Shown here: positions 19,304 through 29,183 of the stretch, one piece after another
Numbering within the stretch: the stretch's first letter is position 1
Layout of the letters: every line of letters begins with the position of its first letter
Notes under the pieces: generated by a model
Databases searched by the model: none
Seen by the model: the letters and a program-made list of their open reading frames with translations, nothing else
Told to the model about the DNA's origin: nothing
Made by a program: the position numbers and the translations under genes
Source of the DNA: Prolixibacteraceae bacterium
Lineage (GTDB): Bacteria; Bacteroidota; Bacteroidia; Bacteroidales; Prolixibacteraceae
NCBI GenBank assembly: GCA_009773765.1
Contig: WTWZ01000014.1
Span: forward strand, 1-40,955
Length of the DNA stretch: 40,955 nt
Direction of reading: 5' to 3'

Positions 19304-19310
19304 AAACTCT

Positions 19311-19371
19311 CTATGCGCCCTATGTGCCTATTGTGTTAAAAATTACCACATAGACACATAGGACACAATAG
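19311..19371. repeat. palindromic intergenic repeat (ACACATAGG family)
   Basis: The left arm (CTATGCGCCCTATGTGCC...) and right arm (...TAGACACATAGGACACAATAG) form an imperfect inverted repeat with about 20 paired bases per arm around an A/T-rich loop. It fills nearly all of the space between kdgK and the LarA-family gene and is a different family from the CCCCTCC repeats next to it. Confidence 0.7.
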
Positions 19372-19393
19372 ATTAATAGAAAATAAAAAGATA

Positions 19394-20807: not shown

Positions 20808-21878
20808 ATGAATAAACCGGTAAATAAAACTACAGACCGCAAGCCCCTCCTTCGGAGGGGTTGGGGAGGCTTTTTTGAGGGGGCAGTTCGCTGGGGAATC
20901 ATTGGTGTGGGCAATGTTACAGAAATGAAAAGCGGACCTGCATTTTATAAAACCGAAAATTCAGAATTGGTTGCCGTGATGAGGAGGGATACTAAAAAAG
21001 CTGCTGATTACGCACGAAGACATAACGTTAAAAAATGGTATCCTGATGCTTCAGCTTTGATTTATGACCCGGTAGTGGATGCAGTTTACATTGCCACCCC
21101 ACCTAACCACCATGCACGCTATGCAATTGAAACAATGCGTGCCGGAAAACCGGTTTACATTGAAAAACCAATGGCCAGAAATTATGCTGAGTGTCTTGAA
21201 ATACTAAAAGTGTCGGAAGAAACCGGAATGCCTGTTTTTGTGGCATATTACCGTCGGACGCTGCCAGCATTTTTAAAAGTAAAGGAATTGGTTTTTGGGG
21301 GTACAATTGGTAAGCCGCTGATGATAAATATAAAATTACACAAACCTGCCAGAGAACGCGGAAAAACTCCTGAAGAGATGAGTTGGCATGTATTTCCGGA
21401 GATTGGCGGAGCAGGCCACTTTTTCGATTTGGCATCACACCAGTTCGATTATCTTGATTTTGTATTTGGCAAGATTACAAATGTTACTGGCATTGCAACA
21501 AACCAGTCAGGGTTGTATCCCGCTGAAGATACAGTAACTGCAGCCTGGAAACATGAATCGGGCGTTGTTGGCTCGGGAAGCTGGTGTTTTGTAGTGGATA
21601 AAAGTCAGTTTACTGATGAAATCGAAATAATTGGGGAAGAAGGAAAAATTATCCTTCCAACTTTTACTCACGGAAAAGTAAGTGTTTTCAATAAAAACGG
21701 AATAACAGAACTCGAATTTACCAACCCGGAACATATACAAATGAATTTAGTAAAACAGGTTGTTGATGAGCTTCGGGGAATTGGAAAATGTGTTGGCACA
21801 GGCGTTTCTGCTGCACGAACAAGCTGGGTAATGGAGGAAATTGTGAAGGACTATTATATTGAGAAAGAGATTGATTGA
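20808..21878 (+). CDS. Gfo/Idh/MocA oxidoreductase, cytoplasmic, with repeat-derived N terminus
   Basis: The 356-residue protein has the Rossmann motif WGIIGVGNV starting near residue 29, AVYIATPPNHHARYA, an intact EKP motif (VYIEKPMARN) and a C-terminal domain with GGAGHFFDLASHQFDYLDFV. There is no signal peptide. Homologues usually begin just before the RWGIIG strand; here the only in-frame start is ATG 20808, and residues 12-23 (KPLLRRGWGGFF) are encoded by a palindromic repeat. The last residues (EKEID) and the stop are likewise inside the repeat array of the following cassette. It could oxidise the same sugar acid handled by its neighbours; the substrate is unknown. Confidence 0.85.
   Translation: MNKPVNKTTDRKPLLRRGWGGFFEGAVRWGIIGVGNVTEMKSGPAFYKTENSELVAVMRRDTKKAADYARRHNVKKWYPDASALIYDPVVDAVYIATPPNHHARYAIETMRAGKPVYIEKPMARNYAECLEILKVSEETGMPVFVAYYRRTLPAFLKVKELVFGGTIGKPLMINIKLHKPARERGKTPEEMSWHVFPEIGGAGHFFDLASHQFDYLDFVFGKITNVTGIATNQSGLYPAEDTVTAAWKHESGVVGSGSWCFVVDKSQFTDEIEIIGEEGKIILPTFTHGKVSVFNKNGITELEFTNPEHIQMNLVKQVVDELRGIGKCVGTGVSAARTSWVMEEIVKDYYIEKEID
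20841..20876 (+). repeat. palindromic repeat inside the oxidoreductase coding sequence
   Basis: AAGCCCCTCCTTCGGAGGGG followed by TTGGGGAGGCTTTTTT is nearly the reverse complement of the element at 18099-18131. It is 36 bases long, so it keeps the reading frame, and is translated as KPLLRRGWGGFF. Confidence 0.8.
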
Positions 21879-21970
21879 GATTAAAAAGAAGAAAGAGATT
21901 AGTGGAGATTGATTGAGATTGGTAGAGAAGAAAGAGATTAGTGGAGATTGATTGAGATTGATTGCTTGAA
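21866..21970 (+). repeat. 5' repeat array of the first S23 cassette
   Basis: Two perfect 35-base copies (21887-21921 and 21926-21960, period 39) contain AGAAGAAAGAGATTAGTGG and GATTGATTGAGATT; a partial copy at 21866-21882 overlaps the end of the preceding gene. GATTGATTGAGATT (21946-21959) is complementary, with one G-U pair, to 22360-22373 just after the four-helix-bundle gene. Confidence 0.85.
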
Positions 21971-21988
21971 AACTTAAAAAATCAAATT

Positions 21989-22360
21989 ATGAAACTGGAG
22001 GACATGGAAATTTACAACATCTCGATGGAAATTGGTGATGAGATTTGGTTTTCGGTTGTTGAGTGGGAAAACCTTGCGAAATATTCAATTGGACAACAAA
22101 TTTTTCGAAGTGCTGATTCAATCGCAGCCAACATTTCCGAAGGATATGGAAGATATTATTACAAAGACCGTAAAAATTTCATGTTTTATGCCAGAGGCTC
22201 ACATTACGAAACAATAACCTGGCTCACCAAAGCAAGAAACAGAAAAATTATCAGCAATGAGTTTTATGAAGGAATCATTTCAAAAATGGATAAATTGGGT
22301 GTTAAAATGAATAATTATATCAATACCCTCGAATCTAAAACCAGCAACAAATCACAATAA
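21989..22360 (+). CDS. S23/IVP-type four-helix-bundle protein, copy 1
   Basis: The 123-residue protein matches the four-helix-bundle family first known from ORFs in 23S rRNA intervening sequences and related to the Avd accessory protein of diversity-generating retroelements. Visible family features are EDMEIYNISMEIGDEIW at the start, RSADSIAANISEGYGR in the middle (the most conserved segment), FYARGSHYETITWL and a C-terminal helix with KMDKLGVKMNNYINTLESK. I chose ATG 21989 because the second copy of the gene has the same start and because upstream sequence is repeat. The gene sits between complementary repeat arrays. The family's biochemical role is unknown; nucleic-acid binding is suspected from the Avd relationship. 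Confidence 0.9.
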   Translation: MKLEDMEIYNISMEIGDEIWFSVVEWENLAKYSIGQQIFRSADSIAANISEGYGRYYYKDRKNFMFYARGSHYETITWLTKARNRKIISNEFYEGIISKMDKLGVKMNNYINTLESKTSNKSQ

Positions 22361-22471
22361 ATCTCGATCAATCACATAAATCAACATGAATATCAAAAAA
22401 TCTCAATGAGTCGCTATAAATCACCATGAGTCGCTATAAATCACCATGAATCTCAATAAGTCTCTTTCCTC
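22360..22471 (+). repeat. 3' repeat array of the first S23 cassette
   Basis: Beginning at the S23 stop codon, AATCTCGATCAATC is complementary to the 5' array. It is followed by degenerate AAATCACCATGA-type units including two perfect tandem 20-base copies of ATGAGTCGCTATAAATCACC (22406-22425 and 22426-22445). The array ends directly at the pdxB start. Confidence 0.85.
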
Positions 22472-23605
22472 ATGAAAATCATCATCGACGATAAAATACC
22501 ATACATACATGGCGTCTTCGAGCAGGTTGCAGAAGTAATTTATTTGCCGGGAAACAAAACCACACCCGAAGTAGTGAGGGACGCTGACGCAATCATTACC
22601 CGCACAAGAACCATTTGTAATGAAAATTTGCTGAAGGGTTCCACTGTGAAATTTATTGCAACTGCCACCATCGGTTTCGACCATATCGATACTGATTACT
22701 GCGAACGTGTCGGCATTCAATGGACAAACGCCCCGGGTTGCAATGCAGGAAGCGTGAACCAGTACATTGCCTCTGCCCTCTTTTCGTGGTCGATGCGACA
22801 AAGAACTGATTTGGCAGGAAAAACCATCGGGATAGTTGGTGTCGGACAGGTGGGCTCGCGGGTGGCAAAAACCTGCGAAACAATCGGTATGAAAGCGCTG
22901 CTGAACGACCCGCCGCGAGAAAGAGCAGAAGGTGCGAAAATATTTACCAATTTAAAAACCATTCAGCAGGAAGCCGATATTATCACTTTTCATGTTCCTC
23001 TAAACATGACTGGTAAAGATGCAACTTTTCACCTGGCGAATACAGAGTTTCTTGCCGGACTGAAAAAACAACCGCTGCTCATCAATTCATGCCGAGGGGA
23101 AGTTTTTGATACCGAAGCTGTAAAACAAGCCAGAAATTCGGGATTGATTTCAGGTTTGGTTATCGACTGCTGGGAAAACGAACCCGACCTCGATTTGGAA
23201 TTATTGAAGATGGCAGATTTTGGGACTCCTCACATTGCCGGTTACTCAAAAGACGGAAAAGCCAACGGAACGATGATGAGTGTTCAGGCAGTGAGCCGGT
23301 TTTTCAATCTTGGTCTCGACGACTGGAAACCCTCGGGTGTGGAACCACCGGAGAATGCAATAATCAGTACCGATGGCAACCAGCGACGTGAATATTCAAT
23401 TCTCGCCGAGGTAATTTTATCGGCTTACGACATTGAAAACGATGATAATGAACTACGTAGAGATACTTTATCCTTTGAAAAACTAAGGGGAGATTATCCG
23501 GTTCGAAGGGAATTTGATTCGTTTACAGTTGAAGCAAAAAATGTAAAAGAGGAAACTTTGGACAAACTTAAAAAACTTGGATTTGGAATAGGGAAAAGAG
23601 ACTAA
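22472..23605 (+). CDS. pdxB: 4-phosphoerythronate dehydrogenase (vitamin B6 synthesis)
   Basis: The 377-residue protein matches PdxB in length and domain order: a D-2-hydroxyacid dehydrogenase substrate domain (KIIIDDKIPYIHGVFEQV), the NAD-binding domain with GIVGVGQVG at residues 120-128, and a C-terminal PdxB dimerisation region. The catalytic residues of the family are in place: Arg208 in NSCRGEVFD, Glu237 in CWENEP and His254 in TPHIAGYSKDG. It oxidises 4-phosphoerythronate in the DXP-dependent pyridoxal phosphate route. It has no obvious link to the sugar-acid genes around it and is flanked on both sides by S23 cassettes; its last codons run into the repeat array of the second cassette. 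Confidence 0.9.
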   Translation: MKIIIDDKIPYIHGVFEQVAEVIYLPGNKTTPEVVRDADAIITRTRTICNENLLKGSTVKFIATATIGFDHIDTDYCERVGIQWTNAPGCNAGSVNQYIASALFSWSMRQRTDLAGKTIGIVGVGQVGSRVAKTCETIGMKALLNDPPRERAEGAKIFTNLKTIQQEADIITFHVPLNMTGKDATFHLANTEFLAGLKKQPLLINSCRGEVFDTEAVKQARNSGLISGLVIDCWENEPDLDLELLKMADFGTPHIAGYSKDGKANGTMMSVQAVSRFFNLGLDDWKPSGVEPPENAIISTDGNQRREYSILAEVILSAYDIENDDNELRRDTLSFEKLRGDYPVRREFDSFTVEAKNVKEETLDKLKKLGFGIGKRD

Positions 23606-23710
23606 TGGAGATTGATTGAGATTTGTAGGGAAGAAAAAGATTAGTGGAGACGGATGGAGATTGGTAAAGAAGAAAGAGATTAGTGGAGATTTGTAGAGAT
23701 TGATTGTTGG
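23594..23710 (+). repeat. 5' repeat array of the second S23 cassette
   Basis: Three degenerate units of the form AAAGAGATTAGTGGAGATT occur with a period near 39. The array overlaps the last four codons of pdxB. GATTTGTAGAGATTGAT (23688-23704) is complementary, with one mismatch, to 24107-24123 after the gene; GATTGATTGAGATT is at 23610-23623. Confidence 0.8.
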
Positions 23711-23728
23711 AAATCTAAAAATCAGAAT

Positions 23729-24100
23729 ATGAAACTGGAGGACATGGAAATTTACAACATCTCAATGGAGATTGGAGATGAGATTTGGTTTTCGGTTGTA
23801 GAATGGGAAAACCTTGCCAAATATTCAATCGGTCAGCAAATTGTTCGAAGTGCTGATTCTATTGCCGCCAATATTTCTGAAGGATATGGCAGGTATCATT
23901 TCAAAGACCGTAAAAATTTCATGTTTTATGCCAGGGGCTCACATTACGAAACAATTACATGGCTTACAAAAGCACAAAACAGAAAAATTATCAGCAATGA
24001 GTTTTTTGAAGGAATCATTGCCAAAATGGAAAAACTGGGAGTAAAAATGAACAACTACATCAACACCCTCGAATCAAAAACCAACAACAAATCCCAATAA
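23729..24100 (+). CDS. S23/IVP-type four-helix-bundle protein, copy 2
   Basis: This is a second 123-residue four-helix-bundle protein, differing from copy 1 at about 8 positions (for example Val for Phe in GQQIVRSADS, His-Phe for Tyr-Tyr in GRYHFKDRK, and Asn for Ser near the end). The DNA of the two copies differs at many more, mostly silent, positions, so the duplication is not recent and the protein is under selection. The copies are 1,740 bases apart in the same orientation with pdxB between them. The 3' neighbour is gnd, 57 bases downstream. Function is unknown; see the note on the surrounding complementary repeats. Confidence 0.9.
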   Translation: MKLEDMEIYNISMEIGDEIWFSVVEWENLAKYSIGQQIVRSADSIAANISEGYGRYHFKDRKNFMFYARGSHYETITWLTKAQNRKIISNEFFEGIIAKMEKLGVKMNNYINTLESKTNNKSQ

Positions 24101-24150
24101 ATCTCTATCAATCACTACAAATCACAATAAATCTTTATAAATCACAAATT
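24100..24150 (+). repeat. 3' repeat array of the second S23 cassette
   Basis: AATCTCTATCAATC begins at the S23 stop codon, followed by ATCACTACAAATC and further AAATCACAATAAATC-type units, ending just before the gnd start. It pairs with the 5' array of this same cassette better than with that of cassette 1. Confidence 0.8.
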
Positions 24151-24157
24151 AATAAAT

Positions 24158-25612
24158 ATGAAAAAGTTAGCAGACATTGGCCTTATCGGCCTCGCCGTGA
24201 TGGGCGAAAACCTTGTGCTGAACATGGAGAGCAAAGGTTACACTGTAGCAGTTTACAACCGCACAGTTTCAAAAGTTGACGAATTTATGAACACACGCGG
24301 TGCAGGCAAAAAATTCATCGGGGCGCAATCCATAGCCGAACTTTGTGCTTCACTCGAAAAACCACGAAAAGTGATGATGCTCGTAAAAGCCGGAAAACCG
24401 GTTGACGATTTTATCGATTTGATAATTCCCCACCTTGAATCAGGCGACATCATCATCGATGGCGGGAACTCGCATTTTCCCGACACTATTCGACGCACCA
24501 AATATGTGGAAAGCAAAGGGTTCCTTTACATTGGAACAGGTGTTTCAGGCGGCGAGGAAGGCGCACTTTTGGGACCATCAATTATGCCTGGCGGTTCGCC
24601 CGCAGCCTGGCCTGCAGTGAAGGATATTTTCCAGAGCATTTCGGCCAAAGTGGAAAACGGAGCAGCTTGTTGCGACTGGGTTGGCGAAGGCGGTGCCGGT
24701 CATTTTATAAAAATGGTACACAACGGAATCGAGTATGGCGACATGCAGATTATTAACGAAGCTTACCAGTTGATGAAAGACCTGCTGGGCATGAACAACA
24801 CTGAAATGCACGAGGTTTTCAAAAAATGGAATAAAGGAATTCTGGATAGCTACCTCATTGAAATCACCCGCGATATTCTGGGTTACAAAGACGAAAACGG
24901 AGAGGAAACCCTTGATTTTATTCTTGATACAGCCGGACAAAAAGGCACAGGCAAATGGACAGGTGTTGCAGCACTCGACCTGGGTATTCCGCTCACCTTA
25001 ATTGGCGAATCGGTTTTTGCCCGTTGTTTGTCGTCACAAAAAGACCTGCGTGTTCAGGCTTCGAAAGTAATCAGCGGACCAAAGGCAGTATTTAAAGGCG
25101 ACAAAAAACAGTTTATCGACGATATTGAAAGCGCATTGCTGGGAGCCAAAATCATTTCGTATGCACAGGGTTACAACCTGATGATGGAAGCCGCCAAGGA
25201 ATATGGTTGGAACCTGAACTACGGCGGCATCGCGCTGATGTGGCGTGGTGGTTGTATCATCCGTTCGGTATTTTTAGGCGACATCAAAAAGGCATTCGAT
25301 AAAAATCCTGAACTGCCCAACTTGTTGTTAGACCCATTCTTTAAAGAAAAAGTGGAAGCAGCACAGGCAGGCTGGCGCAGGGTTTGTGCCACAGCTCTCG
25401 AAAACGGTGTTCCGGTTCCGGCACTTACATCTGCACTTTGCTATTTCGATGGTTTCCGCAGCGAACGTTTGCCGGCCAACCTTTTGCAGGCACAGCGCGA
25501 CTATTTTGGCGCACACACTTACGAACGTACCGACAAACCACGCGGACAATTCTTCCATACCAACTGGACAGGCCGCGGTGGAAATACGGCTTCAACAACT
25601 TATGTAGTATAG
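24158..25612 (+). CDS. gnd: 6-phosphogluconate dehydrogenase (decarboxylating)
   Basis: The 484-residue protein is full length. The NADP-binding motif is GLIGLAVMGENL (residues 8-19), followed by YNRTVSK, GGNSHFPDT and the substrate/catalytic segment GGAGHFIKMVHNGIEYGDMQ with Lys185, Asn189 and Glu192. The C-terminal signature QAQRDYFGAHTYER is also present. It converts 6-phosphogluconate to ribulose 5-phosphate and CO2 in the cytoplasm. Its position after the LarA-family and KDG-kinase genes suggests a region for gluconate-type acids. A double hairpin follows the stop and probably terminates transcription. Confidence 0.96.
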   Translation: MKKLADIGLIGLAVMGENLVLNMESKGYTVAVYNRTVSKVDEFMNTRGAGKKFIGAQSIAELCASLEKPRKVMMLVKAGKPVDDFIDLIIPHLESGDIIIDGGNSHFPDTIRRTKYVESKGFLYIGTGVSGGEEGALLGPSIMPGGSPAAWPAVKDIFQSISAKVENGAACCDWVGEGGAGHFIKMVHNGIEYGDMQIINEAYQLMKDLLGMNNTEMHEVFKKWNKGILDSYLIEITRDILGYKDENGEETLDFILDTAGQKGTGKWTGVAALDLGIPLTLIGESVFARCLSSQKDLRVQASKVISGPKAVFKGDKKQFIDDIESALLGAKIISYAQGYNLMMEAAKEYGWNLNYGGIALMWRGGCIIRSVFLGDIKKAFDKNPELPNLLLDPFFKEKVEAAQAGWRRVCATALENGVPVPALTSALCYFDGFRSERLPANLLQAQRDYFGAHTYERTDKPRGQFFHTNWTGRGGNTASTTYVV

Positions 25613-28634: not shown

Positions 28635-29183
28635 CCTGCTACCCCTCGTTTGTAACGAGGGATGGGCTGTTTGGCATTTGTAATGCAATTATTTTCAGCA
28701 CCAAATAGTTCGTTACCTCTATTTTCATAACGAAAATGAGTTTCAAACCCAAAAACCGCTTACCCCTCGTTACAAACGAGGGGCAGGTTGGGGACATTAA
28801 GATTGATGAACTTAAGGAGTTAATTACCTTCTTAAAGAACCGTTCTTTCTATATTCAATTCAGAGAGAACGGTTCTCTTTTCAAAGTCATACAATCCTAT
28901 AAATCCCCTGCTACCCCTCGTTTGCAACGAGGGGTGGGCTGTTTCGCATTTGTAATGCTTTTTTAATCATCAAATTGATTGAAAACGTATTATCAATTAT
29001 AAAACTAGTGAGTTGCAAACTTAAAAACCGCTTACTCTGCTACCCCTCGTTTGTAACGAGGGGTGGGCTGTTTGGCATTTGCAATGCTTTTAAATCATTA
29101 AATTGATTGAAAACGTTGTATCAATTTTAAAACTAATGAGTTACAAACTCAAAAAGCGCTTACCCCTCGTCGCAAACGAGGGG
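28635..29183. repeat. REP-like palindrome array (five hairpins)
   Basis: Five copies of the hairpin CCCCTCGTT-n3-AACGAGGGG lie at 28642, 28763, 28914, 29043 and 29163. Copies 1, 3 and 4 are followed by GGGCTGTTTGGCATTTGTAA (or close variants) ending in TGC; copies 2 and 5 are preceded by AAAACCGCTTA-like sequence and followed by GCAGGTT. The blocks starting at 28914 and 29043 are about 125-base direct repeats including their spacers. The head/tail alternation resembles BIME structures made of REP sequences. Confidence 0.85.
28836..28876. repeat. 11-bp inverted repeat within the REP-like array
   Basis: AGAACCGTTCT (28836-28846) and AGAACGGTTCT (28866-28876) are perfect complements with a 19-base loop. 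Each arm is itself a palindrome around its central base, so several alternative folds are possible. Confidence 0.75.

Follow-up and report, generated by a model that had tools for sequence, protein, structure and literature searches.

Intervening sequences (IVS) of 23S rRNA occur in Salmonella and others as hairpins without an open reading frame (ORF). In Coxiella, passages of PMC4990558 describe an rRNA IVS that forms a stem-loop closed by a terminal stem of 28 bp, contains an S23 ORF and is subject to RNase III cleavage; the same passages present the S23 four-helix-bundle protein as a pentamer, state no known function for S23 proteins and recall old ideas of a transposition origin for IVS. 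Here we describe two S23 genes in a 40,955-nucleotide stretch of contig WTWZ01000014.1 of a Prolixibacteraceae bacterium (assembly GCA_009773765.1), the whole of which is called the window below. Both genes lie between protein-coding genes and are framed by complementary repeat arrays, which we refer to as arms, the gene and its two arms being a cassette. We read the cassette as a DNA-level inverted-repeat insertion element with the S23 gene in its loop and give this reading a probability of about 0.56; mobility of the cassette, by the element's own action, is what we infer.

The 23S rRNA IVS is the closest known system. As in that system, a long inverted repeat encloses an S23-family ORF in its loop, the termini are inverted and there are hairpin-only forms, so that the build is the same, but the defining rRNA location fails: the window cassettes are found between protein genes at stop codons, without rRNA, and they have cassette-specific word arrays and no RNA-strand signature. 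The nearest system in life style is that of repetitive extragenic palindromes (REP/REPIN) and REP-associated tyrosine transposases (RAYT), for which passages of PMC3116915 likewise describe inverted repeats on both sides of one gene, together with related intergenic hairpins that contain no gene. It fails on the common word and on the gene, since the framed gene here belongs to PF05635 with no Y1 transposase in the cassette, the cassette word is not genome-wide, and separate Y1 loci bear palindromes of their own.

The Avd protein of diversity-generating retroelements (DGR) is in a common superfamily with S23, and one S23 relative (locus L017 of our collection) matched phrog_3206, 'Avd protein of DGR', with E 4.7e-10; window S23 gene 1, the gene scanned, had no PHROG match at E <= 0.01. 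Unlike DGR Avd, the cassettes occur in a genome without an RVT_1 partner, as no RVT_1 reverse transcriptase was found at E <= 0.001 in the source genome of the window (118 contigs, 99.91% complete), and a DGR-like partner is thus not needed. Four-helix-bundle genes are also mentioned in passages of PMC5524665, where one lies between guanylate kinase and nicotinate-nucleotide adenylyltransferase and is listed with phage elements, and of PMC8700078, where two such genes are unique to one strain. We found no description of S23 inverted-repeat cassettes outside rRNA among open-licence PMC titles and abstract openings, which is weak evidence of absence.

The two cassettes of the window

A sequence-only reading of this DNA had described two S23 genes, four arrays and the pairings between them, and all of these were found in the window where it had placed them (Table 1). 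Its claim of an IVS-like build occurring twice outside rRNA was likewise borne out, the S23 genes lying between protein genes with complementary ends, and there was no Rfam match in the window. In profile searches S23 genes 1 and 2 scored 86.8 and 86.6 bits with PF05635 (cut-off 33.8; E 1.4e-24 for gene 1) and 90.4 and 89.3 bits with TIGR02436 (cut-off 24). The PDB entry 2gsc, a solved four-helix-bundle pentamer, was matched by S23 gene 1 (E 3.9e-5) and by the S23 profile A2 (E 2.3e-33), which makes it a relative by sequence.

In both cassettes the array before the S23 gene is rich in G and the array after it is rich in C. In cassette 1, 14 nt at 21946-21959 (GATTGATTGAGATT) pair with 22360-22373 (AATCTCGATCAATC) with one G-U, and the outer ends 21863-21882 and 22449-22468 are 90% complementary across 20 nt, forming terminal inverted repeats. 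In cassette 2, 16 of 17 nt are paired between 23688-23704 (GATTTGTAGAGATTGAT) and 24107-24123 (ATCAATCACTACAAATC). The 3' array had been taken for the reverse complement of the 5' array. This is correct at the level of words, but in Tandem Repeats Finder each 5' array had a period of 39 (with 2.5 and 2.8 copies), and the periods found in the 3' arrays were 10, 20 and 30; because the periods differ, the complementarity of the 3' array lies in its words and this array is no plain reverse-complement copy.

The two cassettes align with each other over 21867-22406 and 23608-24147. This likeness is confined to the stretch from array to array and the junctions are different (the Gfo/Idh/MocA gene and pdxB for cassette 1, pdxB and gnd for cassette 2), which indicates that the arms moved with the gene. 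Comparison of S23 genes 1 and 2 gave dN 0.029 and dS 0.695, a dN/dS of about 0.04 for this one pair, which suggests an old copying event and strong purifying selection on the protein. Matching was scored as the best local complementarity between the 300 nt upstream and the 300 nt downstream of an S23 gene. A joint change of the arms in the two window cassettes had been proposed, but their own scores were 31 and 33 while the crossed scores were 36 and 39; as the crossed scores are no lower, the arms of these two cassettes are interchangeable and the claim was dropped.

The variable C-terminal tail of S23 appears to be translated 3' array (window 22346-22360, and the S23 ends of loci L324 and L339). 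The 5' array can provide the upstream gene with its stop codon.

Table 1. Positions of the two S23 cassettes and of the adjoining genes in the window
Feature	Position	Strand	Remarks
Gfo/Idh/MocA oxidoreductase gene	20808..21878	+	PF01408; TGA stop 21876-21878 inside first array
Cassette 1, 5' arm	21863..21964	+	GAGATTGATTGAGATT-type array, period 39
S23 gene 1, four-helix-bundle, 123 aa	21989..22360	+	3' array overlaps gene end
Cassette 1, 3' arm	22350..22468	+	AATCTCnATCAATC-type array; pdxB start 3 nt beyond its end
pdxB (4-phosphoerythronate dehydrogenase), host gene separating cassettes 1 and 2	22472..23605	+	NF001309 450.8 bits, cut-off 434
Cassette 2, 5' arm	23595..23706	+	covers pdxB stop codon TAA 23603-23605; cassette 1 homology from 23608
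S23 gene 2, 123 aa	23729..24100	+	PF05635 E 1.6e-24; 93% identity to gene 1
Cassette 2, 3' arm	24087..24147	+	cassette 1 similarity stops at 24147; pairs with 5' arm in fold
gnd (6-phosphogluconate dehydrogenase), downstream host gene	24158..25612	+	TIGR00873 753.7 bits

Arm complementarity across S23 genes

The source genome contained 14 S23 matches at E <= 0.001, 13 of them over the cut-off, and an S23 match was present in 27 of the 31 genomes searched, which comprised the source genome and relatives. A first set was collected from 103 loci, where 115 S23 frames were found, none of them in L039. Following removal of identical cores and of flanks shorter than 150 nt, 105 genes were kept, including some broken copies and the interrupted gene of L066, which is counted twice. 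The median score of a gene's own flanks was 28, as compared with 18.5 for swapped partners, 19 for dinucleotide-shuffled flanks and 20 for the direct orientation, and the own inverted score was above the own direct score in 86 of the 105 genes and below it in 16. A second set was drawn from at least 80 loci of titled genome records and from 148 phylum genomes, of which 116, the source genome among them, had a match, and 117 further genes from 109 loci were scored. Here the median was 31 versus 18 for swapped partners; a score of 28 was reached by 76 genes, as against 3.3% of swaps, and inverted exceeded direct in 100.

Fourteen genes come from records with titles outside Bacteroidota, and 12 of them also scored at least 28; these records include Geobacter, Anaerolineae, Omnitrophica, Poribacteria, Nomurabacteria and Planctomycetota and are mostly metagenome-assembled genomes whose titles may be wrong, with Geobacter sp. 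AOG1 on a 3.7-Mb contig. One of the 15 loci so titled, L216, was left out of the 14 counted, and no rRNA match was found at any of the 15.

Other genes were scored in a control sample of 822,857 bases, where 11 of 16 S23 genes but only 16 of 599 other genes reached 28. The S23 genes of this sample overlap the set of 105 and, as the stretches were picked for containing S23, it is unselected as to other genes only. When inspected by eye, the high-scoring control genes were mainly associated with transposon-like ends, terminator-like palindromes and A+T-rich matches; others were three adjacent genes of L104 with repeat palindromes, pdxB where it lies between cassettes, and a gene with a CACAAAG-word hairpin (L124). 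The sequence-only reading had looked to the flanks of other S23 genes for the same complementarity, and it proved to be general, cassette-specific and far beyond the shuffled, swapped and non-S23 controls.

The words vary among cassettes, and the arms within one cassette match each other. For S23 pairs that are 60-70% identical (400 sampled from 524) the own-arm score was 31, whereas 5' arm against 5' arm scored 19 and crossed arms 19.5, both at background. In the 29 multi-gene or phylum loci, same-strand neighbouring S23 genes 1.0-5.0 kb apart were 21-47% identical in 23 of 26 pairs, and such adjacent, unrelated cassettes mostly match only themselves. The four cassettes of L349 had own scores of 37, 55, 25 and 60 and cross scores of 17-24. 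Coordinated turnover of two arms about 400 nt apart is an unusual evolutionary pattern. That low-complexity intergenic arrays are complementary by accident could be argued from the simple-sequence-like arms and from the tail of the swap distribution, where the 99th percentile is 34 and 31 of the 105 own pairs of the first set are above it. Such an accident is scarcely credible, being contradicted by the swapped, shuffled and direct-orientation controls, by the 599 other genes, and by adjacent unrelated cassettes, most of which match themselves better than each other.

A PADLOC search of the two window S23 proteins and one further S23 relative gave no defence-system match.

Junctions, arm polarity and the level of pairing

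Empty sites in relatives, which had been put forward as a check on the cassettes, were found as orthologous junctions without a cassette. The pdxB region was compared at 28 loci in relatives. At the junction after pdxB there were only 6-14 nt in 11 of the 24 junctions listed, while before pdxB a GxxExxY gene was present in 6 of the 28 loci and an S23 cassette in 2, namely the window and L189. After pdxB, a solo hairpin of another word was observed in L175 and L177 and one of the window word type in L192, and L178 had three tandem gene-less hairpins with a single word in 420 nt, which suggests that hairpins may multiply in place. For each of the hairpins in L175, L177, L178 and L192, 0 of 100 shuffles were as good; the candidate hairpins in L181, L186, L197 and L198 did not beat 100 shuffles.

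At a second junction, compared at 30 loci of the same genus, 9 had S23 right behind a TAG stop, and the leader of about 40 nt of the next gene was retained beside it. L330 and L336 have apparent short array remnants, and in L346 a frameshifted S23 is still framed by its arms. An unrelated repeat of about 240 nt in L328, L332 and L334 was examined by eye and rejected as a cassette remnant. The proposal of a mobile or RNA-processing element thus gained on its mobile half, from the array-to-array copy and the presence or absence of cassettes at junctions, but its RNA half was weakened by the null strand tests given below.

The 5' arm starts at a median of +2 nt relative to the upstream stop codon, within 15 nt of it in 81 of 106 cassettes and overlapping it in 43 of 106, and the 3' arm ends at a median of 13 nt upstream of the next start (n = 112); these distances refer only to cassettes that reach a score of 28 and have a neighbour in the same direction. 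Both neighbours were co-directional with S23 in 179 of 199 cases against 122 of 167 background triples (Fisher p 3.1e-5), after removal from 222 of 15 that were not found, another 5 that lie at edges and 3 that are too far. Among cassettes with a score of at least 28, the 5' arm had more G than C in 46 cases and more C than G in 4 in the first set, and the counts were 66 and 3 in the second (p 1.9e-16), with ties omitted (4 of 54 and 6 of 75, respectively) and, in the second set, flanks containing N excluded (75 of 76 kept). Overall the 5' arms contain 25.3% G and 9.9% C and the 3' arms 23.5% C and 10.5% G.

In the 5' arms of 128 cassettes ATG was the rarest ordering of its letters (72 versus 124-189), and perhaps false starts upstream of S23 are avoided. 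Stops in all three frames were considered as a reason for the words and rejected: there were 423 stops versus 356 (sd 12) in mononucleotide shuffles, but neither TGA nor TAG outnumbered its reversed form, as only TAA did (122 versus 96), and the excess is therefore mostly composition. The arm composition, the scarcity of ATG and the fixed position at the gene end would also suit a regulatory insulator in which the C-rich and G-poor 3' arm loads Rho, the G-rich 5' arm masks it and operon transcription continues. This idea is speculative and in our estimation very improbable, as the junction is empty in many relatives, TGA and TAG are not enriched over their reversed forms, and the pairing energy has no strand preference.

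Selection on pairing at the RNA level predicts that G-U mismatches in the arms outnumber A-C mismatches. No such excess was present, with 66 versus 56 in the first set and 71 versus 76 in the second. The mean energy of the arm duplex was -38.40 kcal/mol for the sense and -38.43 kcal/mol for the antisense strand; by cassette (n = 128) the sense duplex was lower in 62 and the antisense in 66 (p 0.88), a comparison uncalibrated on known RNA stems. The lack of a G-U excess together with the equal strand energies points to DNA as the level where the matching arises or is maintained. An RNA role of the cassettes is compatible with these null strand tests, which argue against RNA processing as the keeper of arm matching.

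The alternative is that processing resembles that of the rRNA IVS, the arm stem in the operon mRNA being cut by RNase III or a similar enzyme to free the S23 message. RNA folding does place the arms in a stem enclosing each cassette (cassette 1, z -2.78, 0 of 20 shuffles as good; cassette 2, z -2.90, 0 of 100), the stem begins at the stop codon, S23 is strongly co-directional with its neighbours, and the Coxiella IVS with its S23 ORF is cut in this way according to the same passages of PMC4990558. We nevertheless consider it unlikely, given the mismatch counts and the equal duplex energies, and a processing stem does not require a G-rich 5' arm.

The proposed element and related loci

The repeats do in part occur without an S23 gene, an outcome that the sequence-only reading had counted against itself if equally frequent: the window word is present at three S23-less places in the source genome, and gene-less hairpins stand at some junctions. 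These three places are the only matches to the 5' word (E <= 0.01) beyond the two cassettes in 4.27 Mb; the S23 search lists no gene there, and one of them is interrupted by a masked stretch. Within the window, a gene-less CACATAG-type hairpin at 19310-19372 is located between a PfkB-type kinase gene and a LarA-like gene, 7 nt past the stop; 0 of 100 shuffles were as good, although its score is only at about the 95th percentile of same-strand gaps.

Loci with GxxExxY genes (PF13366) resemble the S23 cassettes in having flanking complementary arrays and in using the pdxB junction. They differ in that the protein is unrelated, the effect is weaker and, of the two families, S23 alone has the G-rich 5' arm. 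When 28 genes from 30 loci, placed by profile, were scored, 9 of 28 reached 28 compared with 3.7% of swaps, and no polarity of the 5' arm was seen (4 versus 6, few cases). GxxExxY cassettes (L144-L173, with L163 and L195 at the pdxB junction) use words such as ACACAAAGACGCAAAGACAC, and a GxxExxY gene can hold a junction where other genomes carry S23. The single GxxExxY protein scanned in PADLOC had weak Cas4 matches (E 0.003-0.004).

There were six Y1_Tnp matches in the source genome, and palindromic arms were present at two of the three such loci read. At 28908-29163 the window has a period-128 repeat with a CCCCTCGTTTGCAACGAGGGG palindrome; closely similar palindromes flank a Y1-transposase gene elsewhere in the source genome (L371), so this repeat would appear to be a RAYT-associated REP element. 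Matches to the Acido-Lenti-1 RNA in L267 (3986-4031 and 4559-4604; titled a KSB1 MAG, i.e. metagenome-assembled genome) were discounted: they are downstream of the S23 cassette, in REP-like palindromes, and look like a different palindromic repeat.

These loci bear on the idea that the arms came first, S23 and GxxExxY genes being passengers in dispersed REP-like hairpins that are spread by another enzyme such as a Y1 transposase. The gene-less hairpins at several junctions, the Y1 loci with palindromic arms and the layout common to two unrelated cargo families fit this idea. It is nonetheless improbable, as the window word has so few further places in the genome, three related S23 pairs (86-93% identical) have the same or nearly the same word, and the arm polarity is bound to S23 and not seen for GxxExxY.

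In the insertion element that we favour, two inverted arrays of tandemly repeated short words, the one before the gene rich in G and the one after it rich in C, would be the ends of the element. Insertion right at the stop of an operon gene, with the next leader spared, would let the operon work on, and S23 would be expressed from the transcript of the host operon. With time a cassette may copy to a new junction together with its arms or, on loss of its gene, be reduced to a hairpin alone, and unrelated cassettes may join at adjacent junctions. The joint change of words probably has one of two causes, copying of one arm from the other by template switching or inverted-repeat conversion, or a requirement of the S23 protein for matched arms. 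The S23 protein, a 2gsc relative by sequence, probably binds the arms of its own cassette.

Several observations weigh against this element. Scores were below 28 in 51 of the 105 and 41 of the 117 S23 genes, direct similarity of the flanks was above 40 in 4 of 105 and 11 of 117, and in L189 and L129 (15981-17052) S23 has a full hairpin on either side and not single arms. Among 86 pairs of S23 proteins at least 80% identical, own arms were better in 30 and crossed arms in 49; as own arms are not above crossed arms, co-change at a fine scale is not shown. Neither a target duplication, for which the junctions were read by eye, nor a transposase nor an excision product was observed, and S23 is not known to be a recombinase. 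The S23 copies inside 8 genomes (63 genes, with 13 of the 14 from the source genome) had median identities of 22-33%, with a pair of at least 86% in 3 of 8 genomes, so most copies are old and there was no recent burst. The strong co-direction of S23 with its neighbours could also reflect an RNA role.

At somewhat less than even odds, we would extend the proposal beyond the window: S23 genes across bacteria may be the cargo of unrecognised, phylum-crossing inverted-repeat DNA cassettes that insert at operon stop codons and whose arms are rewritten in step, of which the rRNA IVS would be members that landed in a 23S helix and the GxxExxY cassettes a sister class. The annotation of operon junctions is affected by such cassettes: in the window the array itself provides the stop of the upstream gene. 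If S23 genes do generally reside in matched-arm cassettes within operons, this would give the family a common context, with the rRNA IVS as one particular instance, and what S23 is for would become testable through its own arms. The cassette looks like an apparently widespread inserting genetic element with a design related to the intervening sequences of rRNA genes.

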